Origin: Salegentibacter tibetensis
GTDB taxonomy: Bacteria; Bacteroidota; Bacteroidia; Flavobacteriales; Flavobacteriaceae
Direction: 5' to 3'
Length of the DNA: 64,000 nucleotides
NCBI RefSeq assembly: GCF_020164485.1
Contig: NZ_JAIQZA010000014.1
Coordinates: forward strand, 35,577 to 99,576
Under the pieces are notes generated by a model. It was given only the letters and a program-made list of their open reading frames with translations. It was not told the origin of the DNA and ran no database searches. Positions 42,002-62,666 of this stretch are shown in pieces. Both the position numbers and the translations under genes were made by a program. Position 1 is the stretch's first letter. Every line of letters starts with the position of its first letter.

Positions 42002-42083
42002 GCTCGAGTGGCGGAACTGGTAGACGCGCTGGATTCAAAATCCAGTAACTTCGGTTGTGCGGGTTCGATTCCCGCCTCGAGTA
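42002..42083 (+). tRNA. tRNA-Leu (anticodon CAA)
   Basis: A complete cloverleaf with a class II variable arm: acceptor GCTCGAG/CTCGAGT (first pair G-U), anticodon stem CTGGA/TCCAG around TTCAAAA (anticodon CAA, reading UUG), variable arm TAACTTCGGTTGT, and T arm GCGGGTTCGATTCCCGC. CCA is not encoded. A promoter precedes it and a terminator follows. A tyrosine integrase gene starts 238 nt downstream, the usual arrangement when an element has inserted at a tRNA. Confidence 0.96.
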
Positions 42084-42108
42084 CTTTTAAGCCTACAAAC
42101 AACACCAA

Positions 42109-42141
42109 AACCCCGTAAACTTCACTGTTTACGGGGTTTTT
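42109..42141 (+). terminator. Terminator of tRNA-Leu
   Basis: CCCCGTAAAC (42111-42120) and GTTTACGGGG (42127-42136) form a perfect 10-bp stem with a 6-nt loop, followed by TTTTTC. Confidence 0.93.
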
Positions 42142-42190
42142 CATTTTTTACAATATCAAATAATATCATTTAAATAGGTATTAAAAGTGT

Positions 42191-42244
42191 CCTATTCGGT
42201 GCCCTTTCTGAATTTTAAAAATAGGTCACCGAATTCACCTTAAC
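42191..42244. repeat. Inverted repeat between tRNA-Leu and integrase
   Basis: ATTCGGTG (42194-42201) and CACCGAAT (42237-42244) are perfect inverted repeats, with CCTAT (42191-42195) and ATAGG (42231-42235) nested. They could be integrase or excisionase binding sites by position; this is inference. Confidence 0.4.
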
Positions 42245-42320
42245 ATATTGATTTAATGGTTTTTACATTCATATTATTTGGTTTTTTTTCTTTAGATTTA
42301 GCATTCAAAAATATATCATT

Positions 42321-43541
42321 ATGCAGAACTTATTATCAATTCTCTTTTATATCAAGAGAGGTAAAACCGACAAACAAGGGAAAGTTCCTATTTATATGAG
42401 AATCACCTATAATGGGAAAAGAGCCGAAGTTAGCACAATGAGAAAAGTAGAATTAAACAAATGGAATTCAAAAGCCAATTGTTTTAAAGGCAATTCCATT
42501 GAAGCTAAATCAATAAATAGGAACCTGGATATTATGAAGAACCGTCTATACAGCATATATCAAAAACTTCAGGATACGGACGAAAATATTACCGCAACTA
42601 TATTGAAGGATATTTATATAGGTAAAGACGATTCAAAAAAAGGAATTTTACAAATATTTGAGGATCACAATTTAAGAATGGAAAAACTGGTTGGAAAAGA
42701 TTATTCCTTTAGAACCCTTCAGCGCTATAATACTACCAAAAAACATTTAACAAATTTTATTTCATCGAATTATAAATCAGATGATTTTCGGGTTAAAGAT
42801 ATTGATACCAAATTCATTAATAGTTTTATTTACTATCTCAAAACAGAACTCAACCTCTCTCACAATTCAGCTTTAAAATATTTAGCCTACTTAAAAAAAA
42901 TTGTTAGGATTGCTGTTGCCAATGGTTGGTTGGAGAAGGATCCATTTTATAATTTAAAACTAAAACGCCAGTCTATTGACCGGGAATTTTTGACTAAAGA
43001 AGAAATTATTAGAATAATGGAAAAAAGCTTCATTATCCCCAGAATGGAACAAGTAAGAGATGCATTTCTGTTTTCATGCTACACCGGGTGCTCTTATTCA
43101 GATATTGAAAAACTAACCACCCAAAATATTATTAAAGGAATTGATGGTTCACAATGGTTAAAGTTTAAGAGAACAAAAACCAAATCGCTTAGTAGCATTC
43201 CTCTTTTGACAGTTCCGGAAGAGCTTATTAAAAAATATAAAAACTTTGAAAATCCTAAAGGCACCTTGTTACCGGTGCTATCAAATCAAAAAACCAATAG
43301 TTACTTAAAAGAAATTGCCGATGTATGCGAAATTCAAAAAAAACTAACCTTCCATGTTGCCAGACATACATTTGCCACCACTGTCACCCTTTCAAATGGT
43401 GTCCCGATTGAAAGCGTAAGCAAAATGCTTGGGCATAAATCATTAAAAATCACCCAACATTACGCAAAGATTTTAGACGAAAAGTTAAGTGAGGATATGA
43501 ATAACCTTAGAGCACGAATAGCTAGCAATGAGAACAAATAA
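42321..43541 (+). CDS. Tyrosine-type site-specific integrase
   Basis: A 406-residue phage-type integrase of the Bacteroidota group. An N-terminal arm-binding domain (YIKRGKTDKQGKVPIYMRIT) and a SAM-like core-binding domain (~110-210) precede the catalytic domain. Catalytic residues: Lys in KFKRTKTKS, His-x-x-Arg in HVARHTFATT, His in MLGHKS, nucleophile Tyr in ITQHYAKI. The first catalytic Arg is missing: the usual TGLR position reads TGCSYSD, giving Ser, as I recall for IntDOT-type integrases of Bacteroides conjugative transposons. It lies just downstream of tRNA-Leu, so it probably belongs to an island inserted there. Confidence 0.92.
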   Translation: MQNLLSILFYIKRGKTDKQGKVPIYMRITYNGKRAEVSTMRKVELNKWNSKANCFKGNSIEAKSINRNLDIMKNRLYSIYQKLQDTDENITATILKDIYIGKDDSKKGILQIFEDHNLRMEKLVGKDYSFRTLQRYNTTKKHLTNFISSNYKSDDFRVKDIDTKFINSFIYYLKTELNLSHNSALKYLAYLKKIVRIAVANGWLEKDPFYNLKLKRQSIDREFLTKEEIIRIMEKSFIIPRMEQVRDAFLFSCYTGCSYSDIEKLTTQNIIKGIDGSQWLKFKRTKTKSLSSIPLLTVPEELIKKYKNFENPKGTLLPVLSNQKTNSYLKEIADVCEIQKKLTFHVARHTFATTVTLSNGVPIESVSKMLGHKSLKITQHYAKILDEKLSEDMNNLRARIASNENK

Positions 43542-51491: not shown

Positions 51492-51599
51492 TTGTTGATA
51501 TTTAATAGCTGTAAACTGCAGGGGGATCCCCTAAAGAAAAAAGTAAATACAAACCAGAATTCCTTCAAAAACGGAATTATGGTAGAAAATATGTAGATA

Positions 51600-51690
51600 A
51601 CACTTTTCCCTTCGCGGGTATTAACCGGATCAGGTTCAAAGGGTTTTATCTCAGCCAATTTTAAAAATCAGCACCCCTAAAGTTTACGTT
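51600..51690 (-). promoter_or_regulatory. TPP riboswitch (THI element)
   Basis: On the minus strand the THI box features appear in order: TAGGGGTGCT, GGCTGAGAT, ACCCTTTGAACCTGATCCGG, TTAATACCCGCG and AAGGGAAAAG. These are the aptamer cores that bind thiamin pyrophosphate. The element precedes thiS and should switch off the whole thi operon when TPP is abundant. Confidence 0.95.
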
Positions 51691-52910: not shown

Positions 52911-55217
52911 TTAGGTTACCACAATAGTTTCCCTGGCTTTTTCTGCCGCTTTAACCATCGCCTTTAATGCTTTTTGAGTTTCTTCCCATTTCCTGGTTTT
53001 TAAGCCACAATCTGGATTTACCCAAAGTTGCTCTGCAGGAATTACTTTTTGAGCTTTTTCAAGCAAGGCAAGCATTTCTTCTACTGAGGGCACTCTGGGC
53101 GAATGTATATCATAAACACCCGGTCCAATTTCATTAGGGTAGTTAAAATTGGAGAAAGCCTTTAGTAATTCCATTTGGGAACGGGAACATTCAATAGTAA
53201 TCACATCGGCATCCATATTGGCTATACTTTCAATAATATCATTGAATTCAGAATAACACATATGTGTATGGATTTGAGTGGAATCAGCCACCCCGCTAGA
53301 TGCAATTTTAAAGCAATCTATGGCCCATTTTAAATAATTCTGCCAGTCTTCTTTACGCAAGGGTAGTCCTTCTCTAATAGCCGGTTCATCAATTTGAATT
53401 ATTCGTATCCCTGCATTTTCCAAATCTTTAACCTCCTTTCTAATAGCCAAAGCTATTTGTTTACAGGTTAGGGATCGGGGCTGGTCATCCCGTATAAAAG
53501 ACCACTGAAGAATAGTGACAGGACCTGTCAACATTCCTTTGATCCATTTTTTTGTTAAGGATTGTGCATATTTTGACCAATAAACCGTCATAGATTTTGG
53601 CCTGGAAACATCGCCATAAACAATTGGAGGTTTCACACATCTACTTCCATAACTCTGCACCCAGGCCTTCTTTGTAAATAGAAATCCGTCCAACTGCTCT
53701 CCAAAATACTCCACCATATCGTTTCGTTCATATTCCCCGTGAACCAGAACGTCAAGTCCAATTTCTTCCTGCCACCGAATGGTCTTTTCGGTTTCTTGCT
53801 TTAGTAAGCTATCGTATTGCTCGGGGGACAATTTTCCTTTTTTGAATTGAGCCCTCCAACTTCTTACCTCTTTGGTTTGGGGAAATGACCCAATGGTTGT
53901 AGTAGGAAATTGAGCTAAGTTCAATACTTTCTGCTGTTCTTTTTTTCGTAAACTAAAAGGATTCTTCCTTTGAGTGTCTTTTTTTGAAATTTGATTAAGC
54001 CTATCTTTAACTACCTTGTTATGAATTAGAAAAGAGGTTTTCCTGTCTTTAAAGGCGTTTTTATTTTCATTAAATTCTTGCAGGGTTTGTTCTTCGGCTG
54101 TACCATTTGCCAGGGCCTGAAGTGTTTTTAATTCCTTCACTTTTTGTTTAGCAAAAGCCAGCCAGTTTTTGATTTCAGGATTTAATTCTGTCTCCAGTTC
54201 AAGATCGTAGGGGATATGTAATAAAGAGCAGGAAGGAGCAATTAAAAGTCTGTTAGACCCTAACTTTTCCTGTGCTTTTTGAATGATTTCCAGTGAACCT
54301 TCAAAATCATTTTTCCAGATATTGCGACCATCCACGATGCCAAGGGATAAGTTCAGGCCTTCGGGAATTTCATTTAGAACATCGTCCAGTTGGGATGGGC
54401 ATCGTACAAGATCAATATGCAATACATCTACCGGAAGCGAAAGGCTTAATGAAAGATTGTCCTTTAAACCTTCAAAATACGTAGCGAGCATAAATTTCAG
54501 GTCAGGGAATTGTTTTTTAATTTCCCCGTATACAAAAGTGAAAACTGCCCTGCTTTTTTCATTTAGATCTAAAGCTAAGAAAGGTTCGTCGAACTGAATA
54601 TATTCTGCTCCTTCTTTTTGTAGAGCAGCTAAAAGATCAATGTAAACCGGTAGTAGCCTATCCACCAAATCTAATTTATCGAAGCCCTCTTCTTTTTCTT
54701 TACCCAACAAAAGATAAGAAACCAAACCAATAATCACAGGTTTTGGTTTAATTCCGGCTTTTTTTGCTTCTATAAATTCATCAAGAATTTTGTCGTAACT
54801 AAGCAGGAATTGTTGATTTTTAGTAAACTCAGGAACGATATAGTGGTAATTAGTGTCAAACCATTTAGTCATTTCCATCGCAGTAATATCCAAACCATCC
54901 TTCTGATAACCCCTGGCCATAGCGAAATATAAATCCAGCTGGGTTGTGGAGGGTTTTTCTGCTATTACCTTATAGCGTTCAGGAATAGCTCCCAGGCTAA
55001 GGGTCATATCCAATACCTGATCGTAATACGAAAAATCATTGCATGGAATCAGGTCAATTCCTGCTTCTTGTTGAAGTTTCCAGTTTTTACTGCGACTTTC
55101 TTTTCCTGCCTGGAGAAGATCCTGTAGTTCATTTTTGCCTGACCAATACTGCTCGCAGGCTTTTTTGAGTTCTCTGTTGCTACCAATTCGCGGATAGCCA
55201 AGAATGTGCGTTTGCAT
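52911..55217 (-). CDS. metE: Cobalamin-independent methionine synthase MetE
   Basis: A 768-residue enzyme transferring a methyl group from 5-methyltetrahydropteroyltriglutamate to homocysteine. The N-terminal domain (MQTHILGYPRIGSNRELKKA) and C-terminal catalytic domain are both present: TTTIGSFPQTKEVRSWRAQF, LVHGEYERNDMVEYFGE, MLTGPVTILQWSFIRDDQPR, the Zn ligands His and Cys in QIHTHMCYSEF, and Cys in NPDCGLKTRKW. A cobalamin riboswitch precedes it, so B12 should repress it. A B12-dependent MetH elsewhere in the genome is implied. Confidence 0.97.
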   Translation of the reverse strand: MQTHILGYPRIGSNRELKKACEQYWSGKNELQDLLQAGKESRSKNWKLQQEAGIDLIPCNDFSYYDQVLDMTLSLGAIPERYKVIAEKPSTTQLDLYFAMARGYQKDGLDITAMEMTKWFDTNYHYIVPEFTKNQQFLLSYDKILDEFIEAKKAGIKPKPVIIGLVSYLLLGKEKEEGFDKLDLVDRLLPVYIDLLAALQKEGAEYIQFDEPFLALDLNEKSRAVFTFVYGEIKKQFPDLKFMLATYFEGLKDNLSLSLSLPVDVLHIDLVRCPSQLDDVLNEIPEGLNLSLGIVDGRNIWKNDFEGSLEIIQKAQEKLGSNRLLIAPSCSLLHIPYDLELETELNPEIKNWLAFAKQKVKELKTLQALANGTAEEQTLQEFNENKNAFKDRKTSFLIHNKVVKDRLNQISKKDTQRKNPFSLRKKEQQKVLNLAQFPTTTIGSFPQTKEVRSWRAQFKKGKLSPEQYDSLLKQETEKTIRWQEEIGLDVLVHGEYERNDMVEYFGEQLDGFLFTKKAWVQSYGSRCVKPPIVYGDVSRPKSMTVYWSKYAQSLTKKWIKGMLTGPVTILQWSFIRDDQPRSLTCKQIALAIRKEVKDLENAGIRIIQIDEPAIREGLPLRKEDWQNYLKWAIDCFKIASSGVADSTQIHTHMCYSEFNDIIESIANMDADVITIECSRSQMELLKAFSNFNYPNEIGPGVYDIHSPRVPSVEEMLALLEKAQKVIPAEQLWVNPDCGLKTRKWEETQKALKAMVKAAEKARETIVVT

Positions 55218-55404
55218 TTCTAACTTTTAATAATTAAACAATTAGTTTTTAAAAGCCTTTAAAATGCTTCGTAATGCTGAGCGATAAGAAAAATGAGGGA
55301 AATAAGAGGATGTACCGAAAGGATATACCTTTCCTGTAAAATGAAAAGTATTTTTGGAGGCACATCTCTAAGACCTAAGCTTCAGACCGCGAAAGCATTG
55401 TCCA

Positions 55405-55560
55405 ATCAGAATAGGCAGGTCTCCTGACTTGTAACGGTATCTGTCATCCTTCCCGCATTAGGCAGTGGATATTCCAGGACAGTACCTTTAAATTGTTACT
55501 TACAGTTGCGCGACAGTTCGTGATTTGCACACGATTCCCTATTAATCTACCTTAAGTAAA
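55405..55560 (-). promoter_or_regulatory. Cobalamin riboswitch upstream of metE
   Basis: The minus strand carries the B12 box AAGTCAGGAGACCTGCC (55430-55414), preceded by GATGACAGATACCGTTAC, ACTGCCTAATGCGGGAAG and GGGAATCGTGTGCAAATC, the usual order of the cobalamin aptamer. It is about 190 nt before the metE start. Confidence 0.93.
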
Positions 55561-55602
55561 ACCTTTTCTGTTTGATGAAGTATGGTAAAGAACTTATGAA
55601 GG

Positions 55603-55743: not shown

Positions 55744-56080
55744 AAAATGACAGCAAGAGGGTAACACGCTACGCGATGTTGGGTAGTCATTTTCCATTTG
55801 TATTACATCATTTGAATGCAGGTTGCATCAAATCTTGTGTGTCCTGAAAACAGCTATGAACTTTTTTATGAAAAAACGCTCTCAGCCCAATAACGACGGT
55901 GAATTTTTTATGAAAAAATGAATTTTCAACACCACTCACCACTTTTACTTCCACTCCGCAAAAGCTCCATTTCAGAAAAAGAGGTTCGTTAAAAAATGTC
56001 TTAACACAGGCCAAAAAGCTTTGGAAATAAAGTGGTAAATGAAGTGATATGAAAAAGCTTTTAGGCTCAAGTCCGCTGGG
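55744..56080. repeat. Diverged duplicated noncoding element, unit 1
   Basis: The head has arms AAAATGAC (55744-55751) and GTCATTTT (55786-55793) enclosing AGCAAGAGGGTAAC. The tail shares CACTCACCACTTTTACTTC, CGCAAAAGCTCCATTTCAG and GGCTCAAGTCCGC with unit 2. No gene is convincing on either strand. Confidence 0.7.
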
Positions 56081-56395
56081 TAGAAGTTTAATCCAAGAAA
56101 CTACTATAATAATCAACTTAATAATAAAAACCTTTTGAGGTGATTAGAAATCTTAATCGACTCAATTTTCCAAAAATCAATTCCCGAATTATTAACTATT
56201 ACCAGGTCTCTAACAGGGATATAATTTCCAGAATCCCATATTTAATTTTAAAACTTCTCAAGTATTCTTCCAATTTTCTACAGTTAACTTTAAAGAATTT
56301 ATTTTTAAATCTTAAAAACCTGGATTCATTTTCTAACCATCTAAAGAGCTATTAAATTCTATTTAATAGTTGAAATTTTGCCCTTGGGGGCAAAA

Positions 56396-56787
56396 GTTGA
56401 ATAGCAAGAGGGTAACGGGCAAAGCCACGTTATAATGTTTCAACTTATTGATTATCATTTATATAATATTTTTAAACAACCTGATTTTAAAACGATTTGC
56501 GACAAATGGCCTGGAAAGCCGCATAACCAGGTTAGAATTTGCGACAATTCGAAAAATGAAAAGTAAAAAACAGCCCACTTCTAGTAAGTTGAAAATTAAA
56601 AATACTTCCGGTTTGAATGAATACTTTTACTTACTAACCCACTCACCACTTTTACTTCTACTACGCAAAAGCTCCATTTCAGCAAAAGAGGTTCATTACA
56701 ATTGTCTTGGACACGAGCCAAAAAACTTTGAAGATGAATTGGTAAATGAGATAATTCGTTGAAACTTTTTGCCTCAAGTCCGCCTGG
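56396..56787. repeat. Diverged duplicated noncoding element, unit 2
   Basis: The head has arms GTTGAA (56396-56401) and TTCAAC (56439-56444) around the same AGCAAGAGGGTAAC word plus a TAACG/CGTTA stem. A perfect TTTTGCCC/GGGCAAAA hairpin lies just upstream (56376-56395). The tail matches unit 1. The outer stem differs in sequence but keeps pairing, which suggests a structured element. Confidence 0.7.
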
Positions 56788-57312
56788 TCCGAACTGAAAT
56801 TCAACAATCAGAATTTCAAGTTTTCTCTTTTTTTGGAAGCTTCCGACACCACCTTCCCTTTTGCTGCCAAAGCAACAAGCTTTGAAATTAATCGGAGTGC
56901 ATAAACCGGTATCCTATTTATAACTCCTATATAATTTCAAAGCCTGAAGATACAGTGGGCATCAAAAGGTAATGCGAAGGCGCTGGAAGAAGTAAATAAA
57001 AAACAACGGAACTATCTTTTCATTCTGATCTACATCCGGTTCCAGTACACCCTCAAAAGGAAAATGCTCCAGATGAAAAAAGTAAATGGCTGAAAAGAGT
57101 TTTCAACATCGGCAACATTTTTAAAATAGTCCTTTAATTCCATTTGAACTTTTGAATTTTACTTCCTAATTTTTATTAATGCATTTTAGTGTCCATTGAG
57201 GCTTTACCCCTTATCATCACTGGAGTTATCAACAATACCACTTTTTATATTATGGAAGTTATGCTCTACATTTAGCCCTGGTTTGACTTTCTTTTAACTT
57301 AAAATTTCTCTT

Positions 57313-57600
57313 ATGGAAAAAGGATTTTCTCAGCCGCTGCGGCAAAGTCTTCATTCCCTCGAAGTGAAGATCGATGAGCTCATAAGAGCTACAAAGGTAC
57401 AGCCACTGGCACATACCGAATACCTCCTGCTCGATAATGCTGATTTCATTCAGTTATTTAAAATTACGGCAAGGACCGCACAACACTGGCGAGAGGATGG
57501 GGTGATTGAATTCCTACAGGTGAAAGGAAAGATCTATTATAAAATTGGTGATGTCAAAGCTTTTATTGATCGGAATCGCCAGGCAAGAAAACAGCGATGA
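57313..57600 (+). CDS. Excisionase-like helix-turn-helix protein
   Basis: A 95-residue protein. The N-terminal ~35 residues are helical (QPLRQSLHSLEVKIDELIRA). A MerR/excisionase-type HTH follows (EYLLLDNADFIQLFKITART, AQHWREDGVIEFLQVKGKIY, YKIGDVKAFIDRNR). Small proteins of this kind are frequent next to integrases and in Bacteroidota mobile elements as directionality factors or regulators. It overlaps the next gene by 4 nt (ATGA), so the two are co-expressed. Confidence 0.75.
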   Translation: MEKGFSQPLRQSLHSLEVKIDELIRATKVQPLAHTEYLLLDNADFIQLFKITARTAQHWREDGVIEFLQVKGKIYYKIGDVKAFIDRNRQARKQR

Positions 57601-58349
57601 AGGAGGTTAACTTATCGGTTCCCATCCAAATGCTGATCGATGCCCAGGTAAATGGGTATGTCAATAAGCTGCGTTTCTTTTTGCTTTTAAAATTTTGCTA
57701 TCCCAGTGGAAAGCTAAAGTTCGATAGAGAAGATCTACTGGATATGGAATGGATGGGAATGATCAAGTCCCGAAAAACTACCAAAAAATATATTGAATTT
57801 TTATGTGAGAAAGGCTGGTTACAGCTTAATGCTAAAACCGGCTATTATATCGTAAAGTCTTTTGACCGCATAAGGGAGGAAGAAGGCTGGAGCGTAAGAA
57901 AGGCTTTTTCAATAGGATTTGATTCATACCTAAACCTGAAGGCCATTATAGGAGGCATTTTATATGCCTATTTGCATACCGATTTCTGGAGAAAAACCAG
58001 GAGGAAGAAAAGCGTACACTTAAAAGGCAGTACCTATCATTTTCTATCCCCTAGGTTTAACTTTAAAGAACAACCTGCACCGGTGGCCGTTTCAGGATTA
58101 GCTTCTATTTTTTCAATCTCTGCTGCTACAGCATCACGATTGAAGAAACTGGCCGATCAGTATAAACTGATCGAAGTGGAAAAGCATTATAGTCCGCTTA
58201 TTTTTAATAAAAAGGCTATGAACTTGTGTCTGAAGTACAATGATAAACCTCATAACCTGGTTTACCGGGATGGTGGTTACCGATTACAGCTAATTGACAC
58301 TATTTTACCTCTTTTTCCGTTCAAAAACAGGCAAAAACTGAAAGCATAA
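57597..58349 (+). CDS. Protein of unknown function in an accessory operon
   Basis: A 250-residue basic protein. Visible features are an N-terminal winged-helix-like region (LRFFLLLKFCYPSGKLKFDR, MIKSRKTTKKYIEFLCEKGW), a central hydrophobic segment (FDSYLNLKAIIGGILYAYLH) and a second possible HTH (GLASIFSISAATASRLKKLA). I do not recognise a family. Two DNA-binding-like segments and coupling to the excisionase-like gene suggest a replication or regulatory role in a mobile element; this is inference. Confidence 0.7.
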   Translation: MKEVNLSVPIQMLIDAQVNGYVNKLRFFLLLKFCYPSGKLKFDREDLLDMEWMGMIKSRKTTKKYIEFLCEKGWLQLNAKTGYYIVKSFDRIREEEGWSVRKAFSIGFDSYLNLKAIIGGILYAYLHTDFWRKTRRKKSVHLKGSTYHFLSPRFNFKEQPAPVAVSGLASIFSISAATASRLKKLADQYKLIEVEKHYSPLIFNKKAMNLCLKYNDKPHNLVYRDGGYRLQLIDTILPLFPFKNRQKLKA

Positions 58350-58873
58350 AGAAAAGGCTATAGATAATTATTCAAAAAATACTTTTCTTTTAGCCTTGCG
58401 TTTTTTGTTTGTTTATTTGGTTTGGTTTGTTTTCGGGTATTTTGGTGATTTTTGTTTGCCGATGATGGCTTTTAATAGGTTTTAGTGCCCGCTAAGCAGC
58501 CATTTTTAATATCCTCGATACCACCTCAATTACTGGTTAATTGTTGTCTACATGAAGTCCAGGAATACTACGGGTTTCGAGCTTGCACACCACTTGTTCA
58601 CTACTCTTCCATTACTAGTACACTAATGGGACACTACCCTACTAACACTAGTCTATTTCTGGAATTGCTTTTATACCAGGGGTTTTGCTGGCCAGATTAA
58701 GTCAAAGTAATCGTCAAATAGTTTTTCCCTACCAATTGTATGATTTTCCTCCGACCCTTTATATGCGTCAATCATATTGGGATATCGATAGTGCTAAATG
58801 GATATTGATGTATACTTTTATTTTGACAAGCTTAGCATTAAACATCATTCTAAAATAGGATATTACGCCATTT
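58350..58873. other. Gene-free region after the unknown gene
   Basis: A terminator-like inverted repeat AAGGCTA...TAGCCTT with a following TTTTTTG lies at 58356-58412. ACTAGT words bound 58613-58652. No convincing gene is present; an ATG-started frame of 71 codons at 58485 has no recognisable features. Confidence 0.5.
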
Positions 58874-58897
58874 GTCATTATTTTTGTGATAAATGAC
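58874..58897 (+). promoter_or_regulatory. Promoter and operator of the Xre-RES module
   Basis: The -7 box TATTTTTG (58879-58886) matches TAnnTTTG. It lies inside an inverted repeat GTCATT (58874-58879) / AATGAC (58892-58897). An antitoxin bound there would cover the promoter. The layout makes the second ATG (58905) a more likely translation start than 58893. Confidence 0.6.
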
Positions 58898-59360
58898 GTC
58901 TGTTATGGGAGAGACAATTAATCATAAAAAGGAAAGAGAGACAGTAGCAAAATGGCTGGACCTCAAATCACTCTCCTTAAATAAAGGGAATGCTTCGTTT
59001 GCATACCTAAAAGTTTTAAAGGAAGGTTTGAACAGGAATTCAATAAATTCTTTCATCAAACATTCAAACTTGACGCTAAAACAGGTGGCAAAATTGATTC
59101 ACGTTTCCGAGAGAACCTTACAGCGGTATTCCCCCGATAGGTCTATAGATATTAATTCTTCGGAACGACTGATAGAACTTACTCGACTTTTTCACAAGGG
59201 AATTAATGTTTTTAATGAAAAAGAAAAGTTTATCATCTGGTTGGATCGGCCAAATAAATCCCTGGCAAATTCGAAACCAATCGATTTAATTGAAACCAGC
59301 ATTGGTATTGATTTAGTTATGGATGAATTACTTAGAATAGAACATGGTGTTTTTTCATGA
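58893..59360 (+). CDS. Xre/MbcA/ParS-type antitoxin (DUF2384 toxin-binding domain)
   Basis: A 155-residue antitoxin (151 if translation starts at ATG 58905, MGETINHKKE). Residues ~50-85 form an Xre-like HTH (KHSNLTLKQVAKLIHVSERT, LQRYSPDRSIDINSSERLIE). The C-terminal ~60 residues match the MbcA/ParS/Xre toxin-binding domain (LFHKGINVFNEKEKFIIWLD, RPNKSLANSKPIDLIETSIG). It binds the RES toxin encoded next and represses the operon. It overlaps the toxin gene by 4 nt. Confidence 0.92.
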   Translation: MTSVMGETINHKKERETVAKWLDLKSLSLNKGNASFAYLKVLKEGLNRNSINSFIKHSNLTLKQVAKLIHVSERTLQRYSPDRSIDINSSERLIELTRLFHKGINVFNEKEKFIIWLDRPNKSLANSKPIDLIETSIGIDLVMDELLRIEHGVFS

Positions 59361-59812
59361 TTGTCTATAGAATTGCCAAGAAAAAATGGATTAAAGATTT
59401 AAGCGGAACCGGTGCTAAAATAACCGGAGGTCGCTGGAACCCTAAGGGCTTTCCTGTTTTATATTGCGCATCAACTTCCTCTTTGGCGATTCTGGAAAAA
59501 TTAGTTCACGTAGATTTTGATCTTTTGCCAAATGACCTGTACATCGCAGAAATAGAAATTCCTGAAAACAGTATTCATGAATTGAGACTAAAAGATTTAC
59601 CTAAGAACTGGAATAAATATCCAGGCCCGGATAAGCTTAAGTTGCTTGGGGAGAATTGGATTCTTGAAAATAAATACTTGGTCCTTCGAGTACCAAGTGC
59701 TGTAAATCCTAATGAAACGAACTATTTAATTAATGTGGATCATCCGGATGACAGTAAAATTAAAATTAGGAAAACCTATCCTTTTGAAGTCGATGAGCGT
59801 TTGATAAAATAA
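59357..59812 (+). CDS. RES-domain toxin (NAD+-degrading)
   Basis: A 151-residue toxin of the RES family, which depletes cellular NAD+ (NAD+ phosphorylase or hydrolase activity). Signature residues are in place: Arg in GGRWNPKG, Tyr in VLYCASTSSLAILEKLVHVD, Glu in the same helix, and Ser in RVPSAVNPNETNYLINVDHP. It is the second gene of the module with the Xre antitoxin. Its stop lies 57 nt from the downstream end of the guide-RNA-like copy B, which is encoded on the opposite strand. Confidence 0.93.
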   Translation: MIVYRIAKKKWIKDLSGTGAKITGGRWNPKGFPVLYCASTSSLAILEKLVHVDFDLLPNDLYIAEIEIPENSIHELRLKDLPKNWNKYPGPDKLKLLGENWILENKYLVLRVPSAVNPNETNYLINVDHPDDSKIKIRKTYPFEVDERLIK

Positions 59813-59848: not shown

Positions 59849-59947
59849 ATTATCCAAAAAATAAGAGTGCCCACGCCGTTGTATATGCTAATCACATTTA
59901 GTGAGCGAAATTCAACTCACCTTACGGGTTTACAAGAACCCTCGTAA
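59849..59947 (-). ncRNA. Putative guide RNA, copy B (scaffold plus 3' variable sequence)
   Basis: Scaffold 59947 down to 59869 (minus strand, 79 nt) is about 87% identical to copy A. It folds into hairpins GGGTT-CTTGTA-AACCC, GTGAG...CTCAC and ATGT-GATTA-GCAT. The first stem has T-A where copy A has G-C, a compensating change. After the shared end GCGTGGGC it continues ACTCTTATTTTTTGGATAAT, which differs from copy A and would be the guide. It may not be expressed, and the scaffold/guide border is uncertain by about 10 nt. Confidence 0.75.
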
Positions 59948-60008
59948 TTTATAATAATCTTTTGTTTAGAATTGACCTTTTTTAGTTCCAATCTATGGGC
60001 TTTCCGTT

Positions 60009-60109
60009 TAATACTTTATTAAATGAGAGCCCACGCGTTGTATATGCTAAGCGCATTTAGTGAGTGAAGTTTTCAACCTCACCTTTCGGGTGTACAAGCA
60101 CCCTCGTAA
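60009..60109 (-). ncRNA. Putative guide RNA, copy A (scaffold plus 3' variable sequence)
   Basis: Scaffold 60109 down to 60029 (minus strand, 81 nt) starts 5 nt after the stop codon of the Cas12f-like gene, the position where TnpB/Cas12f-type guide RNAs are often encoded. Hairpins are GGGTG-CTTGTA-CACCC, a GTGAG...CTCAC stem with inner TGAA/TTCA, and ATGC-GCTTA-GCAT. The scaffold ends CATATACAACGCGTGGGC, and the following sequence is TCTCATTTAATAAAGTATTA, the candidate guide. Same-strand placement with the operon supports co-transcription and processing. Confidence 0.8.
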
Positions 60110-60113
60110 TAAT

Positions 60114-61211
60114 TTAACCTATGATAAGTTCAATACCGGCTTTCTCTGCCTTGTATTTTATTTTGGTCATCAGATCATAATAATTCCAATTCCTTAAGAC
60201 AAATGTTTCTTCTTTAGCTATTTCAATTTTCTTCTCTTGATCTACTAAAATGAGCGTTCCCGCCTGGTGTTTTACGCAGAAGTTGATAAGCTCCCTGCTA
60301 TACACGTGCAGTCGCTGGTTCACATAATTATGCTCTTTATCCTTAAATCTTGACAGGGCTTTTGTTTTCCGTGTACGCCCATTTCCCGACCTGGCATATT
60401 TGACGCCTTCCCGGGTTCTTTGACAGGCAGCTTGAATGGCCAACCTTCGGTATAGAAATTCTTCCCTGCTACCAATACTAAGTTTAGCCTTTCCGATCTT
60501 CACTATAATGGGATATTCCAGGGACAGGCTAGCCTCCGCGACCACTTCCGGCCGTAATTTGTGCTTTTCTTTCTCAATTTCAAAGGCGGCCAGCATAAAA
60601 ATCTTTCCATCTTTTAACTTTAGATAGGAAGTGCGCATCTTAATCTCTCCCTTTGTTAGCTGGTGCATCAATTTCCACTTGTCATTAAATGCCCTGCCTA
60701 AATAGGTCTTTACCGGAATTGAAAAGAATCGAAAGCAAAAGGCACTTTTATCAGGGTTAAATTCCAAACCACAAACTCCTTCCATAGTAAAGGGAAAAGC
60801 CATTTCCCTTTTAAAATTATGTAAGGAACGCTCGCCTTTCCAGTATTCTTCCCTGTTTTTCTTAAAGGTACTTTGAATGCTGTTATTGAGTTGGGATAAT
60901 ATGTTGGTAGGCATTTTTCCTTTGTAGCGGTCAGAAACTAGCCGGTAGGTGGTATTCATCCGGGAGCGGTTAAAAATACCAAGTTCATCCTTTTTTTCAT
61001 CCACCAGTTTATACTTGACCCCTTCCGATAGATAGAAGAACTCCTGTATCATTTCTTGGACATAGAGGTGGGAAACAATAAGGTTTGCAGCCTTGTAGCT
61101 AAGGTAACGCCATTGGTACAGCTTACTTTTGGCCTCCTCACGTTCTTCTTTGGTAGACAGATCGATCTTTAACTGGATTCGCCTGGTTAGTGTTATCGTT
61201 TCCTTTTCCAT
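60114..61211 (-). CDS. Nuclease-dead Cas12f/TnpB-like RNA-guided DNA-binding protein
   Basis: A 365-residue Cas12f-like protein. The first ~200 residues form the WED/REC-type part (WRYLSYKAANLIVSHLYVQE, MPTNILSQLNNSIQSTFKKN). The RuvC core follows: YPIIVKIGKAKLSIGSREEF, LYRRLAIQAACQRTREGVKY, GRTRKTKALSRFKDKEHNYV, ELINFCVKHQAGTLILVDQE and LRNWNYYDLMTKIKYKAEKA. All three catalytic positions are lost: the RuvC-I Asp is Ser228 (EASLSLEYP), the RuvC-II Glu is Val323 (LILVDQE), and the chain ends before the zinc finger and RuvC-III Asp. It should bind DNA with an RNA guide but not cut. The start overlaps the sigma stop region (TAGTGATGG), so translation is coupled. Confidence 0.9.
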   Translation of the reverse strand: MEKETITLTRRIQLKIDLSTKEEREEAKSKLYQWRYLSYKAANLIVSHLYVQEMIQEFFYLSEGVKYKLVDEKKDELGIFNRSRMNTTYRLVSDRYKGKMPTNILSQLNNSIQSTFKKNREEYWKGERSLHNFKREMAFPFTMEGVCGLEFNPDKSAFCFRFFSIPVKTYLGRAFNDKWKLMHQLTKGEIKMRTSYLKLKDGKIFMLAAFEIEKEKHKLRPEVVAEASLSLEYPIIVKIGKAKLSIGSREEFLYRRLAIQAACQRTREGVKYARSGNGRTRKTKALSRFKDKEHNYVNQRLHVYSRELINFCVKHQAGTLILVDQEKKIEIAKEETFVLRNWNYYDLMTKIKYKAEKAGIELIIG

Positions 61212-61213
61212 CA

Positions 61214-61996
61214 CTAAGCAGATTGTTGTTGTTCGTGTTTTAACTGCATCAGCTTATAGGCGGTCATAAATTCCTGGTGGACCTCCTTTTGAGAAAGATT
61301 CAGCTCATTGGCTATTGCAGCAAATGAATATTCTTTTTCCGTACGCAGTTGTAAGACCTTTTCCTGTTCCTGGGTCATCTTCCTCTGAATCTTTACCGCT
61401 ACCAGCGGCTTTGGTTTTGTTTCCAAATTGCTCCCCTGGTGGATAATGTTTTTAATATCCTCAATAGCCCTTTTTACCTCGTTACTAGTGTAGGTAACAC
61501 TGCTGCCCATTATCTGGCCAATAGTTTTATAGCGGAAGTCATATTTTAAACAAAGTTCAACCAGGCGACGTCTTTCGCTGCTAAGCAATGGAAAAACACT
61601 TCGTATCCGGTCGAAGGCTTTTTGTTGCGCCTCGTGGTTTAGTAGGTGCTCATCCTCTTTTTCTGGATCATAACCGTGCAAATATTCCTGGTAGTTCTCA
61701 TAACTTTCCAGGGAATTGACGGTCTTAAAAAACTTATTTTTAGGACGGACACAGTAGGTGCAGCATTCCCTTTTCATCACCATTCGCAGGAAATAATAAA
61801 TATGTTCCGGTCGTTCTATCCGGTCTCTTTTTTCCCATAATATGAGGAAAGTATCCTGCACCAGGGTTTCTACGGCAAAATCATCATCTAATATTTGTCG
61901 GCCCACCCAGAAGATATTGCGGTGGTACTTTGTGTAAATAAACTCCAAAGCATCGGGATGTCCTTGTTGCAATAATTCAAAAATACGCTGTAACAT
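61214..61996 (-). CDS. ECF-type sigma factor with extra C-terminal helix-turn-helix, linked to dCas12f
   Basis: A 260-residue sigma-70-family protein, longer than typical ECF factors (160-200). Residues ~10-85 are region 2 (ALEFIYTKYHRNIFWVGRQI, VETLVQDTFLILWEKRDRI). Residues ~125-187 are region 4 (LLSSERRRLVELCLKYDFRY, IGQIMGSSVTYTSNEVKRAI). Residues ~207-252 form an additional HTH-like unit (MTQEQEKVLQLRTEKEYSFA, AIANELNLSQKEVHQEF). No anti-sigma or SusC/D genes are adjacent, unlike usual Bacteroidota ECF loci. Coupling to a dead Cas12f-like gene suggests RNA-guided recruitment of RNA polymerase. A GGAGG/CCTCC hairpin (62015-62030) precedes the start. Confidence 0.88.
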   Translation of the reverse strand: MLQRIFELLQQGHPDALEFIYTKYHRNIFWVGRQILDDDFAVETLVQDTFLILWEKRDRIERPEHIYYFLRMVMKRECCTYCVRPKNKFFKTVNSLESYENYQEYLHGYDPEKEDEHLLNHEAQQKAFDRIRSVFPLLSSERRRLVELCLKYDFRYKTIGQIMGSSVTYTSNEVKRAIEDIKNIIHQGSNLETKPKPLVAVKIQRKMTQEQEKVLQLRTEKEYSFAAIANELNLSQKEVHQEFMTAYKLMQLKHEQQQSA

Positions 61997-62126
61997 AAGC
62001 AGTCGCTTTTAAGTGGAGGCAAATACCTCCAGAATTAAAATGGATTTAGCTAAAGCGAATTCTTATAATGTATAAAGAGAAGGTAGCTTTGAAAACAATT
62101 GAGAAGAGTGCCTGTTTTCTACAAAC

Positions 62127-62276
62127 AAAAAAGGCGTGGAAACTCAACTTACCGATTCGAGGTACTGGTATACCCTGCAACAATAAGCAAGCCCACGCCC
62201 GGGTCGTGAGCATTGTGCTTATCATCTCGTTGCATAAAAATTACCAGTTTTCGAACCGAGACTCAAAGCGAAATGC
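62127..62276. other. Long structured noncoding element upstream of the sigma-dCas12f operon
   Basis: Nested inverted repeats: CGATTCGAGGTACTGGTA (62152-62169) with TACCAGTTTTCGAACCG (62242-62258, imperfect), TGCAAC/GTTGCA, ATAAGCA/TGCTTAT and CACG/CGTG. Together they make one extended hairpin of ~110 nt. On the minus strand GGCGTGG (62200-62194) can also pair with CCACGCC (62139-62133), followed by TTTTTT like a terminator. It may be an independent small RNA or a 5' leader; strand is undetermined. Confidence 0.65.
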
Positions 62277-62345
62277 TTCTAATATTTTACTTAAAGAAGT
62301 TTCGCAAATATATTAATATGAGATAAATATATAAATAATTTTCTA

Positions 62346-62367
62346 ATGTTGTAATATATTCCAACAT
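62346..62367 (+). promoter_or_regulatory. Inverted repeat upstream of the Xre-type gene (possible operator)
   Basis: ATGTTG (62346-62351) and CAACAT (62362-62367) are perfect inverted repeats. A second one, TTGTAG/CTACAA, spans 62395-62412 up to the ATG. Such sites fit autoregulation by an Xre protein. Confidence 0.4.
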
Positions 62368-62411
62368 AATTTGTGAATTTTTTGCCCACCTTAGTTGTAG
62401 ATAGGGCTACA

Positions 62412-62666
62412 ATGCAGAATAAAAATTATAAAGAAGATTATCTACTTAAATTTGGAGCTAATTTTGGCAAGATTCGACAGAGTAAAAATTTAAGCTTTAG
62501 ATCTTTATCGCAAAAATGTGATTTAGATTATGCAGATCTAAACAAAATTGAAAAGGGAAAGAGAAATATTACACTTACCACAATTATTGAGTTAGCAAAA
62601 GGTCTCGATATTCAACCTCGAGAATTATTTAACTTTAATTTCTCCTTTAAGAATTTAGAAAAGTAA
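62412..62666 (+). CDS. Xre-family HTH transcriptional regulator
   Basis: An 84-residue single-domain HTH protein: LLKFGANFGKIRQSKNLSFR, SLSQKCDLDYADLNKIEKGK and RNITLTTIIELAKGLDIQPR. This is the classic Cro/C1 fold. The start at ATG 62412 (MQNKNYKED) is preferred; the longer reading has an unnatural N-terminus and would cover the operator-like repeats. It is divergent from the sigma-dCas12f operon with the hairpin element between, so it could regulate that operon; this is positional inference only. Confidence 0.85.
   Translation: MQNKNYKEDYLLKFGANFGKIRQSKNLSFRSLSQKCDLDYADLNKIEKGKRNITLTTIIELAKGLDIQPRELFNFNFSFKNLEK

Follow-up and report, generated by a model that had tools for sequence, protein, structure and literature searches.

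A predicted RNA-guided sigma factor-dCas12f pair of Salegentibacter tibetensis with tandem guides and a structured leader as likely target

We describe a sigma-dCas12f gene pair that, together with tandem guide RNAs, probably starts transcription at sites chosen by the guides, likely the structured leader upstream of the pair itself and the leader of a distant susC-susD-M16 operon. The pair is located in a 64,000-nucleotide stretch of DNA from Salegentibacter tibetensis (referred to as the window), and the host genome, 4.2 Mb in 187 contigs, was searched as well. To us, the new elements are the guides in tandem, their likely targets in the pair's own leader and in trans, and a leader with two folds that would serve as their address. 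In a literature search, we recognized no paper on this system or on the leader.

The two genes lie on the minus strand in the order given by the preliminary description, sigma gene first. The upstream gene encodes an ECF-type sigma factor of 260 aa (61214..61996) with the Pfam domains Sigma70_r2 and Sigma70_r4 above the cut-off, and the downstream gene encodes a Cas12f-like protein of 365 aa (60114..61211). They are joined as TAG-TG-ATG, with two bases between the genes; an alternative GTG at 61214-61212 would overlap the stop codon of the sigma gene. The best PDB match of the Cas12f-like protein was 9n9c (chain A, "Nuclease-deactivated Cas12f"; E 2.4e-160), to which 238 of 365 positions (65%, counted on the alignment) were identical. 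The sole PDB match of the sigma protein at E≤0.001 was chain C of 9n9q ("RpoE"; E 4.1e-92), with 140 of 257 positions identical (54%, also counted on the alignment). Because both proteins are kin of the solved dCas12f-σE chains, the earlier assignment of the genes to the sigma and Cas12f/TnpB-like families holds, and the homology to the solved complex supports the prediction that the pair activates transcription. When the Cas12f-like protein was aligned to the Cas12f effector 9nzo and compared by eye, S228 was found in place of the RuvC-I Asp and about V323 in place of the RuvC-II Glu, and the protein stops before the zinc ribbon and RuvC-III. Its score against Pfam TNB was 12.4 bits, below the cut-off of 26.3, and its match to NCBIfam guided_TnpB (E 2.6e-12) was under the family cut-off. 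AlphaFold2 modeled the protein poorly (pLDDT 59).

We found 904 homologues of the Cas12f-like protein, several of which are annotated as IS605 OrfB transposase. A sigma gene lies directly upstream at 77 of 79 related loci, and one of the two exceptions begins at a contig end. The length of 365 aa and a mean column identity of 80% are maintained across 24 relatives. No cas1, cas2, tnpA, or SusC/D gene was detected among the open reading frames at 56-64 kb and the Pfam-tested neighbors, and a repeat search of 57-63 kb revealed no CRISPR-like array, the two scaffold copies described below being the sole long close repeat; on both points, what had been noted from the sequence alone was borne out. 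A type V-F CRISPR-Cas system was rejected on the basis of the missing array in the repeat search (57-63 kb) and of the missing cas1 and cas2 in the tested neighbors. An IS200/IS605 (tnpB) transposon was also rejected, as the catalytic residues are gone and no tnpA was found in the tested open reading frames near the pair. The locus does fit the arrangement of a nuclease-dead Cas12f with a sigma factor to which it had been likened, with respect to homology, gene order, and the presence of the expected guide-RNA scaffold. A RES/Xre toxin-antitoxin pair (58893-59812, plus strand; NCBIfam above cut-off) adjoins the guide units.

Directly 3′ of the Cas12f-like gene, two tandem copies of a guide-RNA-like scaffold of ~70 nt were identified with their guides at 59862-60105; they are absent from the preliminary description. 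Scaffold 1 (60037..60105, minus strand; repeat D2/D3, scaffold HMM, and fold) is followed by predicted guide 1, GCGTGGGCTCTCATTT (60021..60036, minus strand), placed by the scaffold 3′ end of relatives. Scaffold 2 (59878..59943, minus strand; repeat search, scaffold HMM, and fold) is followed by predicted guide 2, GGCGTGGGCACTCTTA (59862..59877, minus strand), placed by comparison of relatives. A guide length of 16 nt was inferred in both cases. The scaffold HMM, built from the four host copies and run on 83 sequences, gave 127 matches in 80 of them; of the 79 named relatives, 78 had the scaffold. We dropped a minus-strand match (L042) and kept 126 guides. Since the sequence is variable after ...CATATACAAC, the guide was taken to begin at that point. 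The median guide start was 84 nt past dcas12f, and the distance was at most 90 nt in 68 of 78 cases. More than one guide was present in 26 of the 80 sequences, with a maximum of six. At one locus (L064, 11165-12041), a single dcas12f gene is followed by six tandem guide units with differing guides. Guides of the GCGTG class accounted for 82 of 126, spread over 61 of the 80 sequences. In the commonest guide class, GCGTGGGCTCTCTTATT, ~16 nt resemble one segment of the leader, beside a 5′-G.

The host genome carries a second sigma-dCas12f copy, missed in the earlier description, on contig C120 with 94% protein identity. The unit at 59858-62342 and the C120 copy share 90% DNA identity and have sharp ends. 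As judged by sequence, the reading frames are open and the scaffold is present in both host copies. A transposon reading of these two sharp-ended copies of 2.48 kb was rejected, as the unit has no transposase and the Cas12f-like protein has no TnpB C-terminus. A further stretch of ~3 kb (55744-58706) is 94% identical to one on C120 beside the second dCas12f copy, and different genes separate it from the dCas12f unit. Farther away in the window, at 42002-43541, a phage-type integrase gene (Pfam) lies just past a tRNA-Leu gene and may belong to an integrated element.

A leader of ~180 nt (62127..62308, minus strand), unseen before, sits upstream of the sigma gene. Sequence comparison, folding, and covariation point to two competing folds formed by segments 1 to 4, of which segment 3 begins at 62198. 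The RNAalifold consensus fold pairs 1:2 and 3:4 and ends in CCACGCC plus a T-run (62127..62139, minus strand), the 3′ arm of the terminator-like 3:4 pairing according to sequence, fold, and covariation. The single-sequence minimum fold pairs 2:3 (z -2.45; 1 of 200 shuffles as low). We aligned 38 of 40 leader sequences (alignment A2; L092 and L038 were left out). The fold 1:2+3:4 showed 12 pairs with double changes versus 3.6 in 500 shuffles, and the fold 2:3 gave a covariation score of 0.252 versus 0.126 in 500 shuffles; a further measure of the 2:3 fold, pair types, was not significant (129 of 500 shuffles). The fold of lower energy was 2:3 in 20 of the 38 leaders and 1:2+3:4 in 18, and in the window leader, 2:3 was lower by 8 kcal/mol. 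Segment 4 pairs with segment 3 only if gapped, and a terminator scan limited to loops of 3-8 did not list the 3:4 hairpin. Against Rfam, the leader gave no match at gathering cut-offs in five loci and the window, and at E up to 1 only one chance match outside the leader was obtained. Elsewhere in the window, a TPP riboswitch (51590-51688, minus strand) and a cobalamin riboswitch that precedes a gene for cobalamin-independent methionine synthase (52911-55581, minus strand) were observed.

Next to the leader, TATATTTA (62324..62331, minus strand) was read from the sequence; it is conserved in leaders and resembles the Bacteroidota -7 motif. An imperfect palindrome, ATGTTGGAATATATTACAACAT (62346..62367, minus strand; also read from the sequence), may be an operator. 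Beyond it, a small divergent HTH gene of the Cro/C1 type (97 aa; 62373..62666, plus strand; Pfam HTH_3, E 1.2e-8) was identified. A divergent open reading frame of at least 65 aa was present within 120 bp upstream in 35 of 35 strong fetched leader copies (L162-L196), and when ten such frames were tested, eight matched an HTH family at E≤0.01, six of them above the curated cut-off. In the host, the divergent frame of the window matches an HTH family and that of contig C118 matches nothing.

At E<1e-15, 36 of 79 relatives have the leader in front of the pair; some loci end short of that place. Further host copies are located on C120, before the sigma gene, and on C109 and C118, where they lie 445 nt and 430 nt, respectively, before susC. 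The C109 operon consists of susC, susD, and an M16 peptidase gene, all by Pfam; on C118, M16 was assigned by Pfam, and susC and susD by resemblance. With a covariance model, the leader was found in 27 of 120 genomes of the family (51 matches at E≤0.001). Of the 46 matches in genomes other than the host, 40 were fetched. susC comes after 21 of them and sigma-dcas12f after 6; the 13 with neither comprise six in genome G017, one where the contig ends, a single further case (L174), and five weak matches in other settings. The six leaders of G017 (L170, L175, L181, L186, L190, and L193), a genome without dCas12f at E≤1e-40, precede related unknown proteins of ~110 aa, one of the six frames being shorter (79 aa). 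At L195, a sigma-like gene of distant kinship (21.5% identity) stands between the leader and susC. All 7 of the 120 genomes with dCas12f (E≤1e-40) contain the leader, for which the hypergeometric chance is ~1.5e-5 (calculated by hand, without kinship correction). The leader is also present in 20 of the 113 genomes without dCas12f, in 13 of these with a match of >100 bits. Since it occurs without dCas12f, the leader can do without the latter, and the guides probably copy and exploit an older element.

We compared the guides with the leaders. In the window, the guide-like site in segment 3, GCGTGGGCTTGCTTAT (62183..62198, minus strand), is located beside a G at 62199. At least 12 of 16 positions agree between a guide and its own leader in 23 of 38 leader-bearing sequences. 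When sites were searched freely along the leader and two off-site rows (L090 and L044) were set aside from 25, the site was preceded by G in 23 of 23. The other 15 sequences, L058 included, have no guide reaching 12/16 on their own leader, and this counts against targeting of the leader. We also examined an anchored set of 38 guide-leader pairs on GCGTG from 24 loci, not chosen by match. Identity was 0.61-0.76 at nt 12-16, 0.47 at nt 17, and mostly 0.1-0.4 beyond; it dipped to 0.47 and 0.42 at nt 10-11, which again counts against. With leaders of other loci, the anchored identity was lower only at nt 13-15 (0.47-0.56 versus 0.61-0.74), and own pairs had a modest advantage over permuted pairs (553/20000; 634/20000 with 15 distinct sites). 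Because genomes without dCas12f have a similar segment 3, the match alone is no proof of targeting.

Leaders away from the sigma locus were also compared with guides. Guide 2 of the window fits its own leader at 13/16 and the C109 leader at 15/17 (the latter by eye), and guide 2 of the C120 copy, minus its first G, fits the C109 susC leader at 17/18 (by eye). If guide 2 keeps its first G, the C109 site is preceded by C, not G. Guide 1 of the window fits its own leader at 12/16 and another site at 12/16 and has no target above background, and guide 1 of C120 shows three adjacent mismatches on C118. Pattern searches of the host genome gave 7 matches versus 3 in the control and 9 versus 5; those outside the guide-RNA genes and leaders look like chance. 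In other genomes too, guides fit leaders of their own genome that lie outside the sigma locus: the fit is 16/17 by eye for three leaders of G080 and for one each of G056 and G109, and more such fits were found in G121 (16), G123 (15), and G124 (four at 14-16), of 17 positions. As susC lies inside the fetched flanks at just 8 of 79 loci, susC targets would mostly be in trans.

Two genomes, G085 and that of L058 (Allomuricauda taeanensis, G120), contain leaders and have no guide of the GCGTG class. Searches of both with 20-nt guide patterns matched only the guide genes themselves. The L058 guide does not fit the leader; a site that has a 5′-G and agrees with the guide over its first ten bases is located 189 bp beyond a leader and ~350 bp before susC. 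By eye, this site, on C14, likewise forms the 5′ arm of an inverted repeat. A 16-nt pattern gave 38 matches in G120 versus 38 in the control, so only its position near the leader and susC speaks for the C14 site. In G085, a guide of the CCTTCCC class fits a hairpin 5′ of susC over ~15 nt without a 5′-G, an observation from one genome only. L208 and L177 belong to a genome with three tandem CCTTCCC-class guides, the third of which matches, over ~15 nt, the 5′ arm of a hairpin located before susC.

Judging from the solved homologue, dCas12f with its guide would bind DNA and bring the sigma factor and RNA polymerase. An RNA-guided start, set by its distance from the R-loop, would lie some tens of bases downstream of the guide site. 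A start downstream of the R-loop would then fall inside the leader, past segment 3. Such a transcript would be without the 5′ arm of the 3:4 pairing, so that the terminator-like pairing could not form and read-through would follow. Transcription from the promoter farther upstream, next to the HTH gene, would by contrast run into the attenuator. In this way, the pair would act as an RNA-addressed switch that activates itself and also governs importer operons in trans. The bold form of this proposal, that an RNA-guided sigma factor bypasses an attenuator, the guide copying the 5′ arm of the terminator, and thereby switches on its own and distant susCD operons, is tentative and less likely than not to hold. 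Within it, the structural constraint on the segment 3 arm would keep the address constant across genera. The start within the leader followed by read-through is the boldest and most speculative step.

Other explanations were weighed against guided initiation at the leaders. The likeness of guide and leader might reflect nothing but a conserved RNA element, the working guide targets lying elsewhere. Indeed, 20 genomes in which dCas12f is absent at E≤1e-40 also have a conserved leader and segment 3, no guide fits in 15 of the 38 sequences with a leader, and the best-placed site in the L058 genome is outside the leader, 189 bp past it. However, conservation of the element leaves two facts calling for explanation, namely that an independent guide RNA repeats segment 3 with a G in front in 23 of 38 loci and that the match falls after nt 16, and we consider this explanation unlikely. 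It is less probable still that the complex binds the leader but chiefly blocks the upstream promoter in the manner of TldR-type repressors. Such a role would suit a guide-like site downstream of a promoter-like box, and RNA-guided repressors of related origin exist (PMC13418256); by contrast, the sigma gene coupled at 77 of 79 loci and the homologous dCas12f and sigma chains solved in one entry (9n9q) speak against repression.

The guide RNA might instead act on the nascent leader RNA, freeing segment 3 from 2 or 4 and so switching termination, which would agree with a guide that carries the segment 3 sequence and with the competition between the 2:3 and 3:4 pairings. Yet the ungapped identity to segment 3 DNA, up to 16/16 beside G, suits R-loop formation, and gaps are needed for segment 4 to pair with segment 3, which makes action on the RNA very unlikely in our judgment. 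Finally, we give almost no credence to an ordinary ECF sigma factor beside a decayed, functionless transposon-type TnpB: the low Pfam and NCBIfam scores and the IS605 OrfB transposase name of several homologues point that way, but the 365-aa length and 80% mean column identity in 24 relatives, the open frames in both host copies, and the conserved scaffolds do not. Guided initiation by the sigma-dCas12f pair remains the explanation that we prefer. If true, the natural wiring of RNA-guided transcription would be positive self-control plus control of importer operons in trans, and the guide address, being built into a structured RNA, would stay the same across many genera; moreover, many susC genes are preceded by this leader, which matches no Rfam model.

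The dCas12f-σE papers reportedly concern an RNA-guided transcription system of Flagellimonas taeanensis. Allomuricauda taeanensis, the source of L058, is presumably the species of the solved dCas12f-σE complex. In the dCas12f-σE system, a 5′-G adjoins the target; in our data, G was found in 23 of 23 on-site self-leader pairs and at C109 only if the first G of guide 2 is omitted. The window locus is like that system (PDB 9n9c, 9n9m, 9n9o, and 9n9q) in its homologous dCas12f and sigma factor, gene order, and scaffold directly downstream. It differs in having two tandem guides and two copies of the unit in the one genome, and its guide resembles its own structured leader, whereas the L058 guide does not. 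In trp-type attenuators, segments pair 1:2, 2:3, and 3:4, with a T-run after 4. The window leader is predicted to form the same pairings and has the T-run, but it has no Rfam match, and its segment 3 doubles as the likely guide address. TldR proteins are not known to have a partner sigma factor. They are nuclease-dead TnpB-type RNA-guided repressors and are alike in combining a nuclease-dead TnpB/Cas12f relative with a guide RNA that controls host genes (PMC13418256). Unlike in TldR, a sigma factor is coupled to the dCas12f of the window, and activation is therefore predicted.
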